This document shows, one piece after another, positions 22,611 through 27,578 of a DNA stretch of 64,000 bases. The notes beneath the pieces are model-generated. The model was given only the letters and a program-made list of their open reading frames with translations, had not been told where the DNA came from and made no database searches. The stretch spans positions 4,613,501-4,677,500 of the forward strand of contig NZ_CP072827.1 in NCBI RefSeq assembly GCF_017916255.1, in the 5' to 3' direction. This stretch comes from Streptomyces mobaraensis NBRC 13819 = DSM 40847. GTDB lineage: Bacteria; Actinomycetota; Actinomycetes; Streptomycetales; Streptomycetaceae. The position numbers and the translations under genes are program-made. Positions within the stretch are counted from its first letter, which is position 1, and each line of letters opens with the position of its first letter.

Positions 22611-24044
22611 GTGGCGCGCTACGGGAGCTGTGAGTCGAACGGGGCTGTGGGGTTGGGGCGTGCGTTGGCGCAAGGTGAGGTGTCGGCACGGGAGTTGGCA
22701 CAAGAGGCGCTGCGACGGATAGAAGTGACGCAAGGGACGCTGAACGCCTTCCGGTGGGTGCGTGGCGAGGATGCCCTGCGCGACGCCGACGCGGCCGACC
22801 GGCGGCTGCGGGCGGGGGAGCGGGGAGCGCTGCTCGGTGTGCCCGTGGCCGTCAAGGACGACATGGACATGGCCGGTCTGCCCACCGCCTTCGGCTGCCC
22901 CGGTGACTTCCCGGTGAAGCGGGCCGACAGTGAGGCCGTGCGCCGGCTCCGCGCCGCCGGGGCCGTGATCGTCGGGAAGACCAACACGCCCGAGCTGGGG
23001 CAGTGGCCGGTGACCGAGGGGCCCGCGTTCGGGGTGACACGGAACCCGTGGAACACCGCGTACACCCCCGGCGGTTCGTCCGGCGGCTCGGCGGCGGCCG
23101 TCGCCGCCGGGATCGTTCCCGCGGCCCTCGGCTCGGACGGCGCCGGATCCGTCCGCATTCCGGCCGCCTGGACCCACCTGGTCGGGATCAAACCGCAGCG
23201 GGGACGGATCTCCGCGTGGCCGGAGCGCGAGGCGTTCCGCGGGCTGACCTGCGGCGGAGTGCTGGCACGGACGGTCGCCGACGCGGCGCTGCTGCTGGCC
23301 GCCGCGAGCGGCTCGCACGCCGGCGACCTGCACCGGCCCGCGGCGGTCGACGTCGTGGCCGCCCTGGAGCGCACCCCGCGGCGACTGCGGATCGCCCTCT
23401 CGCTGCGGCCGGCGTTCGCCGCGGTACGGCACCGGCTCGACCCTCGGGTGCGGGCCGCGACCCTGCGGACGGCGGAGCGGCTGGAGGCGCTGGGGCATGA
23501 AGTGGTGCCCGAGGAACCGCGGTTCGGGCCGGTGGGGCTGACGTTCGTCCCCCGGTCCATGTCCGGGGTGCGCGAGTGGGCGGGCAGGGTGCCCGAACGG
23601 CGGCTGCTCGACGGGCGGACGCACCTCAACGCGCGCGGCGGACTGGTGCTCGGCGGCGCCGTCCTGCGCGCGGCGCGCGCGGCGGAAGCACCCCTGCGGG
23701 GGCGGATGAACGCCCTGTTCGGCCGCTACGACGCACTGCTCACGCCGACCACGGCCGCGCCGCCGCTGCCCGTCGGGGCGCTGGACGGGCTCTCCGGCCG
23801 GGAGACGAACTCCCTGATGATCACGGCGTGTCCGTACGCCTGGCCGTGGAACGTCCTGGGCTGGCCCGCCGTGAACGTCCCCGCCGGGTTCACCGAGAAC
23901 GGCCTGCCGCTCGGCTCGCAACTGCTGGGCCCGGCCGGCGCCGAGCCGCTGCTGGTCTCCCTCGCCGCGCAACTGGAAGAGGAGGAGCGGTGGTTCGAGC
24001 GCCGGCCGGTCGCCGACTGGGGCGTGGGGCGGGCCGTGGCGTAG
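22611..24044 (+). CDS. Amidase (amidase signature family)
   Basis: A 477-residue hydrolase of carboxylic amides. The amidase-signature triad is complete: Lys in VPVAVKDDMDMAG, the cis-Ser in TPGGSSGGSAAAVAAG, and the nucleophilic Ser in GSDGAGSVRIPAA. The GTG at 22611 has a purine-rich GGGGAAGGGG just upstream. The frame from 22575 lacks one. There is no signal peptide, so it is cytoplasmic. Family members act on diverse amides (AmiD, 6-aminohexanoate-cyclic-dimer hydrolase-like), and the substrate cannot be read from sequence. Nothing beyond proximity ties it to the peptide locus 300 bp downstream. Confidence 0.9.
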   Translation: MARYGSCESNGAVGLGRALAQGEVSARELAQEALRRIEVTQGTLNAFRWVRGEDALRDADAADRRLRAGERGALLGVPVAVKDDMDMAGLPTAFGCPGDFPVKRADSEAVRRLRAAGAVIVGKTNTPELGQWPVTEGPAFGVTRNPWNTAYTPGGSSGGSAAAVAAGIVPAALGSDGAGSVRIPAAWTHLVGIKPQRGRISAWPEREAFRGLTCGGVLARTVADAALLLAAASGSHAGDLHRPAAVDVVAALERTPRRLRIALSLRPAFAAVRHRLDPRVRAATLRTAERLEALGHEVVPEEPRFGPVGLTFVPRSMSGVREWAGRVPERRLLDGRTHLNARGGLVLGGAVLRAARAAEAPLRGRMNALFGRYDALLTPTTAAPPLPVGALDGLSGRETNSLMITACPYAWPWNVLGWPAVNVPAGFTENGLPLGSQLLGPAGAEPLLVSLAAQLEEEERWFERRPVADWGVGRAVA

Positions 24045-24105
24045 GGCACCGGGTGACGGGACCTGAACTCCCTTGAGGGGGAAGGTTTCTTCTTTCGGCA
24101 CCGCG

Positions 24106-24129
24106 ACAGGAAGGGTGGTTTCTTCCTGT
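24106..24129. terminator. Hairpin between amidase and the peptide locus
   Basis: ACAGGAAG (24106-24113) pairs with CTTCCTGT (24122-24129) over an 8-nt loop, followed by AAATCCCTATTATTT, unusually AT-rich for this genome. It may end the amidase transcript. The AT-rich tail may also serve the start of the next transcript. Confidence 0.45.
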
Positions 24130-24357
24130 AAATCCCTATTATTTCCCGGCCTTGCGCCCGACATGCCGTAGATGCCCAATCCGGGCCCAGACGCAACCCG
24201 TCCGAGTGAGTCGTCGAGTGATGCCGTGCTCGCGATACGTATCGGGCGCTAGCCTCCTTGCGGGATGGCGGGGCCAGAGAGGTCCCCGTCGGCGTGCCGG
24301 GCAGCGGTGCCTGGCGGTCGGTGGGACTGGATGGAACGGCGCCGTCCGGAGGGAGGG

Positions 24358-24633
24358 ATGACGATGAGAACCGCTGTGACCTTCGGGGAGCTCGCCGCGC
24401 TCCAGGGCGAGGTGCTGCCGCCTCGTACGGTCCTGTCGAGCCTGCCGGCGGGGAGCGCGGATCCGTCGTTGTACCCCATGCTGGTCAGATCCGAGCACGG
24501 TACGACCGTCGTCTACGCCTGCCAGTACCGGCAGGACGCGGGTAGTCCCGGGCTCCTGGCGGCGCTGGGGCTCGCGCCCAGCACCCCGGGGCACACGGTC
24601 ACCTGCATCCCCGCGGGGATCTCCACGCGCTGA
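24358..24633 (+). CDS. Putative precursor peptide 1 (paired with the 24934 gene)
   Basis: A 91-residue protein with a strong GGAGGGAGG-type site immediately before the ATG (24358, with a second ATG at 24364). An N-terminal leader-like block (residues 9-25, FxELAxxxGEVLPxRTV) is followed by a variable region. A 45-residue C-terminal block begins HGTT and carries Cys55 and Cys83. It aligns without gaps to the second peptide: 12 of 17 leader residues and about 20 of 45 C-terminal residues are identical, and the two Cys keep the same 28-residue spacing. There is no classical signal peptide. I do not recognise the family. A ribosomally made, post-translationally processed peptide is the likeliest reading, given the M50 protease downstream. 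Confidence 0.6.
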   Translation: MTMRTAVTFGELAALQGEVLPPRTVLSSLPAGSADPSLYPMLVRSEHGTTVVYACQYRQDAGSPGLLAALGLAPSTPGHTVTCIPAGISTR

Positions 24634-24933
24634 TCGCACCCGGAAGCACCGCGCACCACACCGCATCACCCGCACCGCACCGAAACCGACGAAGACCTTC
24701 CGCCCCGACATCGGCGACGTCACCGTACGCGGCGCGGCGGTGTTGCCCGCTTCCACCCAGATATCCAAGGTCTCATCCCCGGAGACCGTCCGGCCGGGGA
24801 TGGAGCACTCGGTCCCGTCGGTCCGGCGGCCGGGTGCGGAGGCCCGGCGAGTGCGGTCCATCAGGGCATTCCCAGGGCATCCAGTACGTCCCAGGGCATC
24901 CGGTACGTCCCACGTCCAGAGAAAGGGAACGGA
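24634..24933. other. Intergenic region between the two peptide genes
   Basis: 300 bp with no further gene that I can support. Its right half contains the 19-bp tandem repeat at 24871-24908 and then the GAGAAAGGGAACGGA ribosome-binding site of the second peptide. The distance and the repeat suggest that the second peptide gene can have its own promoter. Confidence 0.5.
24871..24908 (+). repeat. 19-bp tandem repeat before the second peptide gene
   Basis: CCCAGGGCATCCAGTACGT (24871-24889) is repeated at 24890-24908 with a single A-to-G change, and a partial copy (TCAGGGCATT) precedes it at 24861-24870. It ends 25 bp before the ATG of the second peptide gene. Confidence 0.7.
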
Positions 24934-25236
24934 ATGGACAACCTCATCAGCTTCGAAGAGCTCGCCGGAGTCTCCGGCGAGGTGCTGCCCGAGCGTACGG
25001 TCATGGGCATCATGGCCGTCCCGTTCGGCCCCGGCGACGGCGGTGCCGGCAGCGCCGCCGGCAGCCTGTCCAGCGCGTCGGCCAACGGCGGCGGCGACCA
25101 CGGCACCACGGTGCTGTCGTCCTGCCAGTCCCTCGACCACCCGCAGACCGCGGGCCTGCTCGGGTCGCTCGGCCTCCCGTCCCAGAACACGACCACCAGC
25201 GTCACCTGCACCCCCGCGGCCATCTCCAGCCACTGA
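24934..25236 (+). CDS. Putative precursor peptide 2
   Basis: A 100-residue paralogue of the 24358 product. The leader-like block is at residues 7-23 (FEELAGVSGEVLPERTV). A Gly/Ser/Ala-rich spacer (32-54) follows, longer than in peptide 1. The conserved 45-residue C-terminal block is HGTTV at 56-60, Cys64-Gln, GLL..LGL and VTC at 90-92, ending in Ala-Ile-Ser-Ser-His. The purine-rich site GAGAAAGGGAACGGA lies directly upstream. The M50 protease gene begins 126 bp downstream on the same strand. No function is known to me. The conserved leader and variable linker are typical of modified peptide precursors. Confidence 0.6.
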   Translation: MDNLISFEELAGVSGEVLPERTVMGIMAVPFGPGDGGAGSAAGSLSSASANGGGDHGTTVLSSCQSLDHPQTAGLLGSLGLPSQNTTTSVTCTPAAISSH

Positions 25237-25362
25237 TCGCTCCCGGGCCACCGGCCCGGTAGCGGAGCGCCGCACTCGCCCGGTGGGGGAGGGCCGTGTG
25301 TCCTCGGCCTTCCCCCGCTGTGCCAGGGGAACCGTCGCCCGACACCCTTTCGGAGAGCATCC

Positions 25363-26850
25363 ATGACCCTGCCCTTCGTCCCGGGCGCCGGCCGCGCGGG
25401 ATCCCCGCCGGGGCGGCGGCCGCTCCCGGACCGGCGGGCGGCCGGAGAACCCCGGTTGGTACCCGGCACCGAGCTCGTCGGCGAGTTCGAGGGGTCCGGC
25501 TACCGCGACCCGCCGCAGCTGGTCTGCCGCCCCGACGGGCAACTGGTGCGGCTGCCCGGGCTGTTGTACCAGGTCGTACGCGCCCTGGACGGCCGCGGCG
25601 ACGGTCGCCGTGATCAGCGTTCGTCGGAGCGGCCTCCGGACGAGGACGCTCCGAAGGGCGAGACGAAGGCTCCGGACGGCGACCCCGTCCTGGCGCGCGT
25701 GGCGGACGAGCTGAGCCGGGAGACCGGACGGCGGTTCACCGCCGAACACATCGCGTACCTCATCGACGAGAAGCTCGCCCCCCTCGCCGTCACCACCTAC
25801 AGCGACGGCTCCCCGCCCCCGCCGGCCCGCCGGAGCGACCCCTTTCTCGCCTTCCGGTTCCGGCTCGCGGTGCTGCCCGAGCGCGTCACCTGGTTCGTCT
25901 CCGGCCTCTTCGCCTGGCTCTTCCACCCCTTCCTGGTGTACCTCGCGGTCTGCGTCTTCGTGGTCGGTGAGACATGGGTGTGGATGTCCCCGGAGACCGT
26001 GACCGCCCTCCAGGCGGTGCTCACCGCCCCGGGCAGCGTCCTCCTCGTGGTGTTCCTGGCCATAGCCTCCTGCGTCTTCCACGAGTGGGGGCACGGCGCG
26101 GCGTGCCGGTACGGAGGGGTGCGGCCCGGCGCCATGGGCTGCGGCATCTACCTCGTCTGGCCCGCCTTCTACACCGACATCACCAACTCCTACCGCCTGG
26201 GGCGGGCCGGGCGGATCCGGGCCGACCTGGGCGGTGTCTACTTCAACGCGCTGTTCGTCCTCGGTCTGCTGGGCCTCTACGCGGCCACGGGATTCCAGCC
26301 GCTCCTGGTCGCGATCGTCGCCGTCAACCTGGAGATCGTCCAACAGCTGCTCCCCACGCTGCGGTTCGACGGCTACTACATCGTCGCCGACCTCGTCGGC
26401 ATCCCCGACCTCTTCTCCTACATCGGGCCCATCCTCAAGCGCGTGCTGCTCCGGCGCCCCGCGGACGAGCGGCTCCGCGCCCTCAAGCGATGGCCTCAGG
26501 CCGTGGTCGCGTGCTGGGTGCTGTGTCTGATCCCGGTGCTCGCGCTCCAGGTCGGCATCCTCCTGCTCAATCTGCCCCAACTCCTCGCCGCCGACTGGCA
26601 CAAGGCGCGGTGGCTGCTGGAGAACGCGGGCGCGTCCGGCCACCAGGTCCTCGGCATGGTCTCGGCCTGCCTGCAGATCGTGCTGCTCGCCCTGCCGATC
26701 GCCGGACTGCTGCTCGCCCTGGTGCGGCCGGCGCGCTCGCTCGTCCGGTTCCTCGGCCGCAAGGCGGGGCGGAGCGGCCGGAAGACGGGACGGCACGGGG
26801 GAGCGGCCACCCGGAAGGCGCGCCGGGCGGGCCGCCACGCCGCGAAGTGA
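25363..26850 (+). CDS. Membrane M50-type zinc metalloprotease with RRE/PqqD-like N-terminal domain
   Basis: A 495-residue integral membrane protein. Residues about 30-145 look like a winged-helix recognition element: PPQLVCRPDGQLVRLPGLLYQVVRALDG, a charged insert, then LARVADELSRETGRRFTAEHIAYLIDEKLAPL. Several helices follow. The zinc motif HEWGH is at 240-244, and a second motif, LRFDGYY (Asp336), is the expected third metal ligand. The C-terminal 40 residues are strongly basic. Such 'putative peptide zinc metalloproteases' (YydH-like, and the protease of daptide clusters) accompany small peptides. Here it most likely binds the leaders of the two upstream peptides and cuts them at the membrane. 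The ATG follows TTTCGGAGAG. Confidence 0.75.
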   Translation: MTLPFVPGAGRAGSPPGRRPLPDRRAAGEPRLVPGTELVGEFEGSGYRDPPQLVCRPDGQLVRLPGLLYQVVRALDGRGDGRRDQRSSERPPDEDAPKGETKAPDGDPVLARVADELSRETGRRFTAEHIAYLIDEKLAPLAVTTYSDGSPPPPARRSDPFLAFRFRLAVLPERVTWFVSGLFAWLFHPFLVYLAVCVFVVGETWVWMSPETVTALQAVLTAPGSVLLVVFLAIASCVFHEWGHGAACRYGGVRPGAMGCGIYLVWPAFYTDITNSYRLGRAGRIRADLGGVYFNALFVLGLLGLYAATGFQPLLVAIVAVNLEIVQQLLPTLRFDGYYIVADLVGIPDLFSYIGPILKRVLLRRPADERLRALKRWPQAVVACWVLCLIPVLALQVGILLLNLPQLLAADWHKARWLLENAGASGHQVLGMVSACLQIVLLALPIAGLLLALVRPARSLVRFLGRKAGRSGRKTGRHGGAATRKARRAGRHAAK

Positions 26851-26876
26851 CGCCGGGCGGCCCGCCGCGCGGGGGG

Positions 26877-27578
26877 CTACGGCGCCAGGATGTCCAGCTC
26901 GGCCATCGCGCCCGTCGCGATCTCCCGGGTGAGCGCCTCCGCGCGCTCGGCGTCGTGCAGCCGGACCGCCTCGGCCACCTGTACGTGGAGGGTGACCGCG
27001 GCCGGATCCGGGTCGGTGAACATCACCTGATGCCGGGTCCGGCCGGTGAGCACCTCGGCGACGACATCGCCGAGGCGGGCGAACATCTCATTGCCCGAGG
27101 CGCGCAGCACGACCCGGTGGAACGCGATGTCGTGCAGCAGATAGGCGTCCAGTTGCTGGCCTCGTGAGGTGGCGACCATCCCGAGCGCGTGCTCGGTGAG
27201 TTCGGCGCACTGCTCCGGGGTGGCCAGGCGGGCGGCGAGGCCCGCCGCGACGGGTTCCACGGCCGAGCGGAGCACGGTCAGCGACCGCAGCTGCCGGGGC
27301 CGGTCCGGGCCGGCCAGCCGCCAGCGGATGACCTGCGGGTCGTAGACGTTCCACTCCTCGGGCGGCAGCACCGTCACGCCGACCCGCCGCCGCGAGCTGA
27401 CCAGGTGCATGGACTCCAGGACGCGTATCACCTCGCGGACGACCGTGCGCGAGACCCGGAAGCGCTCCTCCAGCTCGTCCGTGCGCAGCACGCTCCCCGA
27501 CGGGTATGCGCCCGCCGTGATCGCGGGTCCCAGGGACTCCAGCACCCGTGCGTGCGGTCCCTGCCCATGGTTGGCCAT
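26877..27578 (-). CDS. FadR-type GntR family regulator of the gluconate genes
   Basis: A 233-residue regulator. The GntR winged helix occupies residues 8-75 (SGSVLRTDELEERFRVSRTVVREVIRVLESMHLV) and the FCD ligand-binding domain the rest. The FCD metal/ligand His and Asp residues appear in AYLLHDIAFHRVVLRASGNEMF and ATLHVQVAEAVRLHDAE-like positions. It is divergent from gluconokinase, with an inverted repeat in between. FadR-type regulators of this position (GntR, GluR) release DNA on binding gluconate or 6-phosphogluconate. Confidence 0.88.
   Translation of the reverse strand: MANHGQGPHARVLESLGPAITAGAYPSGSVLRTDELEERFRVSRTVVREVIRVLESMHLVSSRRRVGVTVLPPEEWNVYDPQVIRWRLAGPDRPRQLRSLTVLRSAVEPVAAGLAARLATPEQCAELTEHALGMVATSRGQQLDAYLLHDIAFHRVVLRASGNEMFARLGDVVAEVLTGRTRHQVMFTDPDPAAVTLHVQVAEAVRLHDAERAEALTREIATGAMAELDILAP

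Follow-up and report, generated by a model that had tools for sequence, protein, structure and literature searches.

Among the described systems closest to the locus reported here, the daptides were found through RiPP recognition elements (RREs; RiPP, ribosomally synthesized and post-translationally modified peptide) fused to a site-2 protease (S2P), and their protease MpaP is described as the enzyme that removes the leader (accessible part of PMC10036551). For EpeP, the protease of the epipeptide system, a double role in cleaving and exporting its substrate EpeX is assumed (accessible part of PMC10885120), and TMcin is an antimicrobial with one disulfide that is matured by an S2P-clan protease and has an ATP-binding cassette (ABC) exporter (accessible part of PMC13252029). 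The term M50 is absent from the main text of two papers on RREs (PMC7470986 and PMC12710340). Here we describe a three-gene cassette from Streptomyces mobaraensis NBRC 13819 (= DSM 40847), located in the window, that is, the whole 64,000-nucleotide stretch analysed (contig NZ_CP072827.1, positions 4,613,501 to 4,677,500), in which two small precursor peptides, of types B and A, are followed by a membrane protease with an RRE-like N-terminal domain. The usual reason to look for RREs is that they point to enzymes that modify peptides. We read the cassette as a self-contained, leader-directed and protease-only maturation system for two secreted Cys-pair peptides, with a probability of about 0.6; no description of it was found in the literature covered, most subscription journals lying outside that coverage.

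Comparison with described systems

The daptide protease MpaP resembles the window protease in that an RRE is fused N-terminally to a site-2 protease and in that several leader-bearing precursors adjoin it (accessible part of PMC10036551). The two systems differ, however, in the protease itself, which scores 88.2 bits with the NCBIfam model daptide_HExxH (NF041824) against a cut-off of 300, in the leader (LPxR in the cassette, ELExMEAP in daptides), and in the peptide ends, since daptide precursors end in Thr, whereas the window peptides end in Arg (B) and His (A). Furthermore, no dehydrogenase, aminotransferase, methyltransferase or ABC transporter was recognised in the window neighbours tested or in 10 representatives of shared neighbour families, the genes of these loci having been called by a GC-frame heuristic. 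Another locus (L023) is probably of the daptide kind, its 29% identical protease lying beside a peptide that ends in Thr and has an EAP leader.

The epipeptide protease (YydH/LiaK/EpeP) is likewise an M50 intramembrane protease serving a small precursor (accessible part of PMC10885120). In contrast, the window protease reaches 41.4 bits with the YydH/LiaK model (NF058609) against a cut-off of 225, and the cassette encodes two Cys-pair peptides. A radical S-adenosylmethionine epimerase is a feature of the epipeptides, and none was recognised at the window locus. Judged by these family thresholds, the window protease is a relative of both families and a member of neither. With TMcin (TmcA/TmcP) the cassette shares two conserved Cys residues, which form a disulfide in TMcin, and probably leader removal by an S2P-clan protease; TmcP is, however, a DUF3267 protein for which the accessible part of the source mentions no RRE, and TmcA contains a transmembrane helix and is served by an ABC exporter and an escort protein (PMC13252029).

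A three-gene unit recurring in actinomycetes

The three open reading frames (ORFs; 91, 100 and 495 residues) all lie on the + strand in the order B, A, protease, at the positions given by a first-pass annotation made from the sequence alone (Table 1). That annotation had described the peptides as tandem paralogues with a conserved leader block and a gap-free 45-residue C-terminal block holding two Cys residues 28 apart, and a direct recount returned the same values: 12 of 17 leader positions (FGELAALQGEVLPPRTV in one peptide, FEELAGVSGEVLPERTV in the other) and 20 of 45 core positions are identical, with the Cys pair equally spaced in each. The resemblance goes beyond chance, because P0184, a relative from elsewhere, recovers both peptides in the window genome (peptide A at E 2.9e-13, peptide B at the value in Table 1) and the arrangement recurs in three actinomycete families. 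The type-B gene has a second ATG at 24364, six bases later, as a possible alternative start; because close relatives begin with MRTAVTF or MGSAVTF, the type-B peptide of the window is probably 89 residues long.

Table 1 Features of the cassette in the window
Feature	Position	Strand	Basis and remarks
Type-B precursor peptide, 91 residues	24358..24633	+	ORF; 118 bits as B versus 63 as A with the hidden Markov models (HMMs); P0184 match, E 1.7e-6
Type-B leader, containing GELAALQGEVLPPRTVLS	24358..24438	+	Leader logo of 60 B rows
Type-B core block, 45 residues, YACQ...TCIPA, Cys 28 apart	24496..24630	+	Sequence
Type-A precursor peptide, 100 residues	24934..25236	+	ORF; HMM 110 bits as A versus 68 as B
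Type-A leader, SFEELAGVSGEVLPERTVMG	24934..25008	+	L at -8 in all 76 A rows
Type-A core block, 45 residues, SSCQ...TCTPAAISSH, Cys 28 apart	25099..25233	+	Sequence
RRE-like plus site-2 (M50) membrane metalloprotease, 495 residues	25363..26850	+	Homologues, NCBIfam matches, AlphaFold2 model
N-terminal RRE/PqqD-like winged-helix region, residues 30-150	25450..25812	+	
Zinc motif HEWGH, residues 240-244	26080..26094	+	Sequence
FDGYY motif, residues 335-339	26365..26379	+	D336, G337 and Y338 invariant in 66 aligned sequences

The distribution of the cassette was surveyed in one genome per species by searching for the leader pattern EVLP[EP]R[TA]V[ML][GSA] and confirming the matches against a precursor, the protease playing no part in the selection. 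It yielded 64 related loci, mostly in Streptomyces, Amycolatopsis and Actinomadura, with single loci filed as Streptosporangium, Streptantibioticus and Actinomycetospora. In 56 of the 64, the protease follows downstream on the same strand (median gap 17 bp, range -63 to 372), which bears out the expectation that peptides and protease co-occur across actinobacterial genomes; the opposite outcome named beforehand, peptide homologues mostly without the protease, did not occur. Both A and B are present in 55 of these 56 loci, and 54 have exactly one of each, 35 in A-B and 19 in B-A order. Departures from the pair are L093 (Actinomadura sp. K4S16), with five A-type and one B-type precursors before one protease, and L082, whose protease accompanies two A-like peptides; outside the 64 loci, L006 has an A-like peptide and no B found by HMM typing.

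The eight other loci comprise L046, at a contig end where the protease starts, L064, whose precursor gene is decayed, and six additional A genes (L059, L063, L067, L079, L080 and L081) in genomes that hold the cassette elsewhere (L074, L065, L073, L075, L069 and L057, respectively). A profile search of 392 Streptomyces genomes, with an alignment containing both window peptides, gave 13 genomes with precursors, the window's included, each having the protease beside a precursor; one additional precursor locus (L104 in G128) is without an adjoining protease. In a family-level draw of 297 genomes, 12 had a match, and a protease search of 10 new loci and two longer stretches from it revealed a protease match in 11 of the 12, that of L207 being only 38% identical and L206 having none. 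Thus, gene order and the two peptide types are conserved, and the cassette is a compact three-gene unit common to several groups of soil actinomycetes rather than a chance assembly.

The membrane protease

Of 8000 candidates scored against the window protease, 1772 are homologues at E<=1e-3, and in its own genome, a single 7.57-Mb contig, it matches itself alone at E<=0.001. The HEWGH and FDGYY motifs noted in the first-pass annotation are present directly after the peptides, and in an alignment of 66 sequences, that of the window among them, the residues H240, E241, H244, D336 and G337 never vary; D336 is presumably the third zinc ligand, by analogy to the DG motif of S2P. The protein therefore carries the hallmark of the M50/site-2 clan, HExxH with a distal DG motif in a membrane core. 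The AlphaFold2 model has a mean predicted local distance difference test score (pLDDT) of 78, falling below 50 at residues 335-348, the FDGYY region.

The N-terminus, which had been proposed to be a PqqD/RRE-like domain, models with three strands followed by three helices in a winged-helix fold, as expected of that domain. Its profile signal depends on profile breadth, the hhalign probability against PqqD being 1-3% with a narrow profile and 82.9% (E 9e-6) with a broad one; Pfam gave no PqqD match in this N-terminus, and Foldseek with the protease model gave no match at E<=0.001. On the predicted domain layout, the protease would join an RRE-like winged helix to the core of a site-2 protease, and the RRE-like domain probably reads the peptide leader. 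Among the 120 protease homologues listed, P0066 and P0083 have a fused MauE domain (PF07291), which we take to be tied to redox chemistry, and P0066 also has DoxX.

Leader and core of the two peptides

The leader shared by both types reads roughly [F/Y]-x-E-L-D-x-L-x-G-E-V-L-P-x-R. In addition to the A rows (Table 1), L at -8 is found in 98% of the 60 B rows, and E at -2 in 91% of them. The invariance at the LPxR-type positions is partly due to selection, because the scan pattern and the trimming pattern (which required LPxR) demanded them; neither pattern covered L-8. Of the 76 A and 60 B rows, 7 and 5 come from L001-L006, with apparent repeats of L044 and L039, leaving 72 and 58 distinct, and one B row (L053), missed by the trimming pattern, stands outside the set. 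The types are separated by HMMs of the precursors, with the signature SCQ...TCTPAA in A versus YACQ...TCxPA in B, the models being built from the same loci that they typed, the window locus included.

In the A core, two Cys residues are present in 74 of 76 rows and none in the other two (the decayed gene of L064 and the second A of L082), and the spacing is 28 in 59 of the 74, otherwise 26, 24, 29, 22 or 13. All 60 B rows have two core Cys residues, seven having a third in the leader part, and the last two Cys are 27 or 28 apart in 59. Peptide A has 68 relatives in the protein database at E<=0.01, itself included (P0121-P0188), of which 64 have two Cys, three none and one three; the core Cys residues have been lost jointly in P0176, P0178, P0179 and L082:9464-9817. 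Being kept or lost as a pair fits a disulfide, which the two residues may form.

P0184 has the same core block behind what by eye is a Sec-like signal peptide, without the LPxR leader. It is a single cluster: a protein search for further Sec-like versions returned only P0184 itself, and a P0184 search of the 392 genus genomes gave mainly the cassette's own peptides and one weak match in a 529-residue frame (G114, E 9.2e-5). In Kitasatospora, P0180 carries the same core block behind a different N-terminus. Considering the Cys pairing, the Sec-like version and the MauE-bearing protease homologues together, we infer that the core peptide acts outside the cell.

A contrary assignment would make the peptides cytoplasmic regulators of the membrane protease, with the RRE as a sensor, and not exported products. 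RRE-like domains bind peptides by nature, and no exporter was recognised at the locus among the neighbours tested, both of which would suit such regulators; we nevertheless regard this as quite improbable in view of the conserved paired Cys, the Sec-like version of the block, and the exchange of cores behind a kept leader described below.

Known-family searches gave little for the window proteins: no Pfam family at E<=0.001 for any of the three, no Pfam chaplin match for the peptides at E<=1, no PADLOC match at E<=0.1, and nothing meaningful in a sequence search of the PDB. Rfam over 24000-27400 gave only two weak matches, far under the gathering scores. The database label of P0162, 'Thiocillin family RiPP', was set aside, no NCBIfam model backing it. 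The A core is modelled, with low confidence, as two strands, and a fold search with the peptide model found no match to solved folds at E<=0.001; no transmembrane helix is evident in the precursor sequences or in this model, as judged without a dedicated predictor.

Evolution of leaders, cores and protease

Correlations were calculated over loci with exactly one A and one B, namely 19 of 21 Streptomyces loci (among them one filed as Streptosporangium) and, for the Actinomadura range, 30 of the 39 loci L056-L094, shared ancestry contributing to all values. The identity of leader plus spacer follows that of the protease with r 0.73 (A) and 0.70 (B) in the Actinomadura range and 0.45 (A) and 0.59 (B) in Streptomyces. 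The corresponding values are 0.39 and 0.24 for the A core, with the B core lying between leader and A core (0.54 and 0.38). A and B cores co-vary weakly with each other (0.23 and 0.14), which argues against a tight one-to-one complex. A codon comparison, too coarse to lean on, gave fewer amino-acid changes in leaders than in spacers.

Among the 1378 pairs formed by 53 A proteins (P0121-P0173), seven combine N-terminal parts at least 93% identical with cores at most 80% identical (down to 53%), and 26 have the reverse pattern of a similar core and differing N-terminal parts. Near-identical leader and spacer with clearly different cores are seen in P0139/P0144/P0169, P0142/P0149 and P0156/P0162. 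From these comparisons, the A core looks like a module exchanged between near-identical leaders.

These data bear on whether the products are a two-peptide antimicrobial, each peptide being secreted and acting with its partner on membranes. As in two-peptide bacteriocins, the two peptides are encoded together, in 55 of the 56 protease loci; the swapping of A cores in the seven pairs is in line with such a function, and TMcin offers a precedent combining an S2P-clan protease with one disulfide (accessible part of PMC13252029). On the other hand, the cores barely co-vary, the shared neighbours tested include no recognised gene for immunity or export, and no membrane-spanning helix is evident in the low-confidence A model, so that we consider an antimicrobial pair possible but rather doubtful.

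In a tree of leader plus core, the A/B label changes twice, versus 19.1 times in shuffles; with 57 rows from 26 chosen loci and 67 columns, the columns are too few to prove a single origin for each type. The A/B pair seems, from this comparison, to be older than the split of Streptomycetaceae, Pseudonocardiaceae and Thermomonosporaceae, or to have moved between them as a pair.

Sister systems with other cargo

Related loci outside the A/B family (L007-L022 and L142-L167) have a protease 39-49% identical to that of the window and related LPxRE or LPDKE leaders, often on two or three tandem precursors, whereas their cores are unrelated to the A/B Cys-pair block. The 16 Streptomyces sister loci have proteases 39-42% identical, leaders of the ESAELLPGREALG type and unrelated Asn/Ser-rich cores. 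A class-wide draw located the protease family in 58 of 394 genomes and 22 of 137 genera at E<=1e-20, and many of the 26 sister loci taken from it encode precursors, often arranged in tandem and about 70 to 387 residues long, whose leaders include GEELPDREAMS and ALPDKEVVS. The cargo is either short and Asn/Ser/Gln-rich, or repetitive and Asn/Ala/Gln-rich with up to 387 residues.

A strict leader pattern, fixed after the sister loci had been viewed and counted over all those fetched, matches all 16 Streptomyces sister loci and 21 of the 26 from the class-wide draw (37 of 42), versus 0 of 8, 0 of 30 and 0 of 40 controls (0 of 78). Those without a match are L142, L148, L155, L157 and L165, of which L157 has an LPDKE leader that the strict pattern misses. 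Its presence in sister loci and in none of the controls indicates one protease family and one leader logic with several cargo classes. We speculate, tentatively, that RRE-guided site-2 proteases might form a general route in Actinomycetes for exporting and releasing unmodified proteins, in which the fused reader would choose cargo by its LPx[RK] leader, cleave it within the membrane and deliver it to the exterior. Equally tentatively, the A/B Cys-pair peptides would mark one end of the cargo range and repetitive proteins approaching 400 residues the other. The sister loci were viewed over approximately 1.5 kb on each side, and after those of L013, L016, L146 and L164 comes a protein that looks secreted and has CxxC motifs. 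One sister neighbour matched bindosome_BasB (E 0.02), a match dropped as far under the cut-off.

The sister cargo, repetitive, Asn/Ala/Gln-rich and up to 387 residues long, is unlike peptide antibiotics, and raises the alternative that A and B are subunits of a surface or matrix protein, for instance one forming a fibre or the coat of aerial hyphae, with the protease carrying out their maturation. The two strands modelled with low confidence for the A core would agree with such a subunit, as would the host range, the Streptomyces carriers of the cassette being, as we presume, largely of the verticil-forming group. Weighing on the other side, the peptides match no solved fold or sequence, nor any Pfam family at E<=0.001, the swapping of cores would be unusual for a static coat, and a chaplin-like gene lies near a single locus only. 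This gene (L210:631-969 in G879) is near a cassette with two A-like genes, with transposase-like pieces between them (by eye), and is treated as chance because a pattern search of the loci and the window found no second chaplin. Taken together, a structural subunit is an alternative we hold only with reserve.

Neighbouring genes

Outside the cassette itself, common neighbours occur mostly among loci of one genus and differ between genera. By Pfam, the 10 representatives of neighbour families comprise a SpoIIE phosphatase, a luciferase-like enzyme, a halogenase-like oxygenase, an esterase, a ferritin-like protein, a kinase, an aconitase, a glycoside hydrolase and two without a match; those tested in the window encode an amidase and a GntR/FCD regulator. 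Neither set contained a recognised RiPP-modifying enzyme or ABC exporter, many families lying outside this check, in keeping with the first-pass annotation, which had listed none at the locus. Nor was an immunity gene recognised among the shared neighbours tested.

These neighbourhoods bear on whether A and B belong to a true RiPP system, in which enzymes from other parts of the genome modify the core and the protease is left with the last maturation step. Fusions of an RRE to S2P are known from the daptides, where the protease acts after other enzymes (accessible part of PMC10036551), and the window genome holds three other PqqD-domain matches outside the window; however, neighbourhoods that vary by genus, and the 10 representatives without a RiPP enzyme or ABC transporter by Pfam, in a check that leaves many families outside, make distant modification unlikely in our estimation.

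Some loci have further genes nearby. The halogenase-like protein of the Actinomadura locus L084 is an oxidative enzyme encoded some kilobases from the cassette, and L048 and L054 have, by eye, ABC-ATPase-like genes some kilobases away that are not common to the loci. A small secreted-looking protein follows the protease in the Amycolatopsis loci L050, L051 and L052, that of L052 (12975-13334) having no Pfam match.

Proposed maturation of the peptide pair

The suggestion of a minimal, protease-only processed-peptide locus is strengthened by the co-occurrence of the three genes, by the two peptide types and by the lack of a recognised modification enzyme in the neighbours tested, and the cassette appears to represent an undescribed mode of trimming a peptide pair and setting it free without such an enzyme. 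In the predicted pathway, peptides A and B would be made with a shared leader (step 1), which the RRE-like N-terminal domain of the membrane protease would bind (step 2), whereupon the site-2 protease core may cut shortly after LPxR (step 3). The C-terminal part would then pass outside, alone or with a general exporter (step 4), where the two conserved Cys residues may close a disulfide (step 5), and A and B would emerge as two products, no enzymatic tailoring being recognised at the locus (step 6). The A core would be the variable, active part and pass from strain to strain, with leader and protease co-evolving. Leader binding, cutting, export, disulfide formation and biological role are all points that we infer from sequence; the role is most likely that of a secreted pair acting at or between cell surfaces, for example in strain-specific interaction or a surface layer.

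The only enzyme recognised here is a membrane protease that seemingly has its own leader reader and serves a conserved pair of peptides. Should export depend on the leader as well, the cassette would represent a secretion route without a dedicated transporter. With one short leader, a single protein and two small products, the system is simple enough to be tested directly, and judging by the sister branch its logic extends to other cargo in the Actinomycetes.

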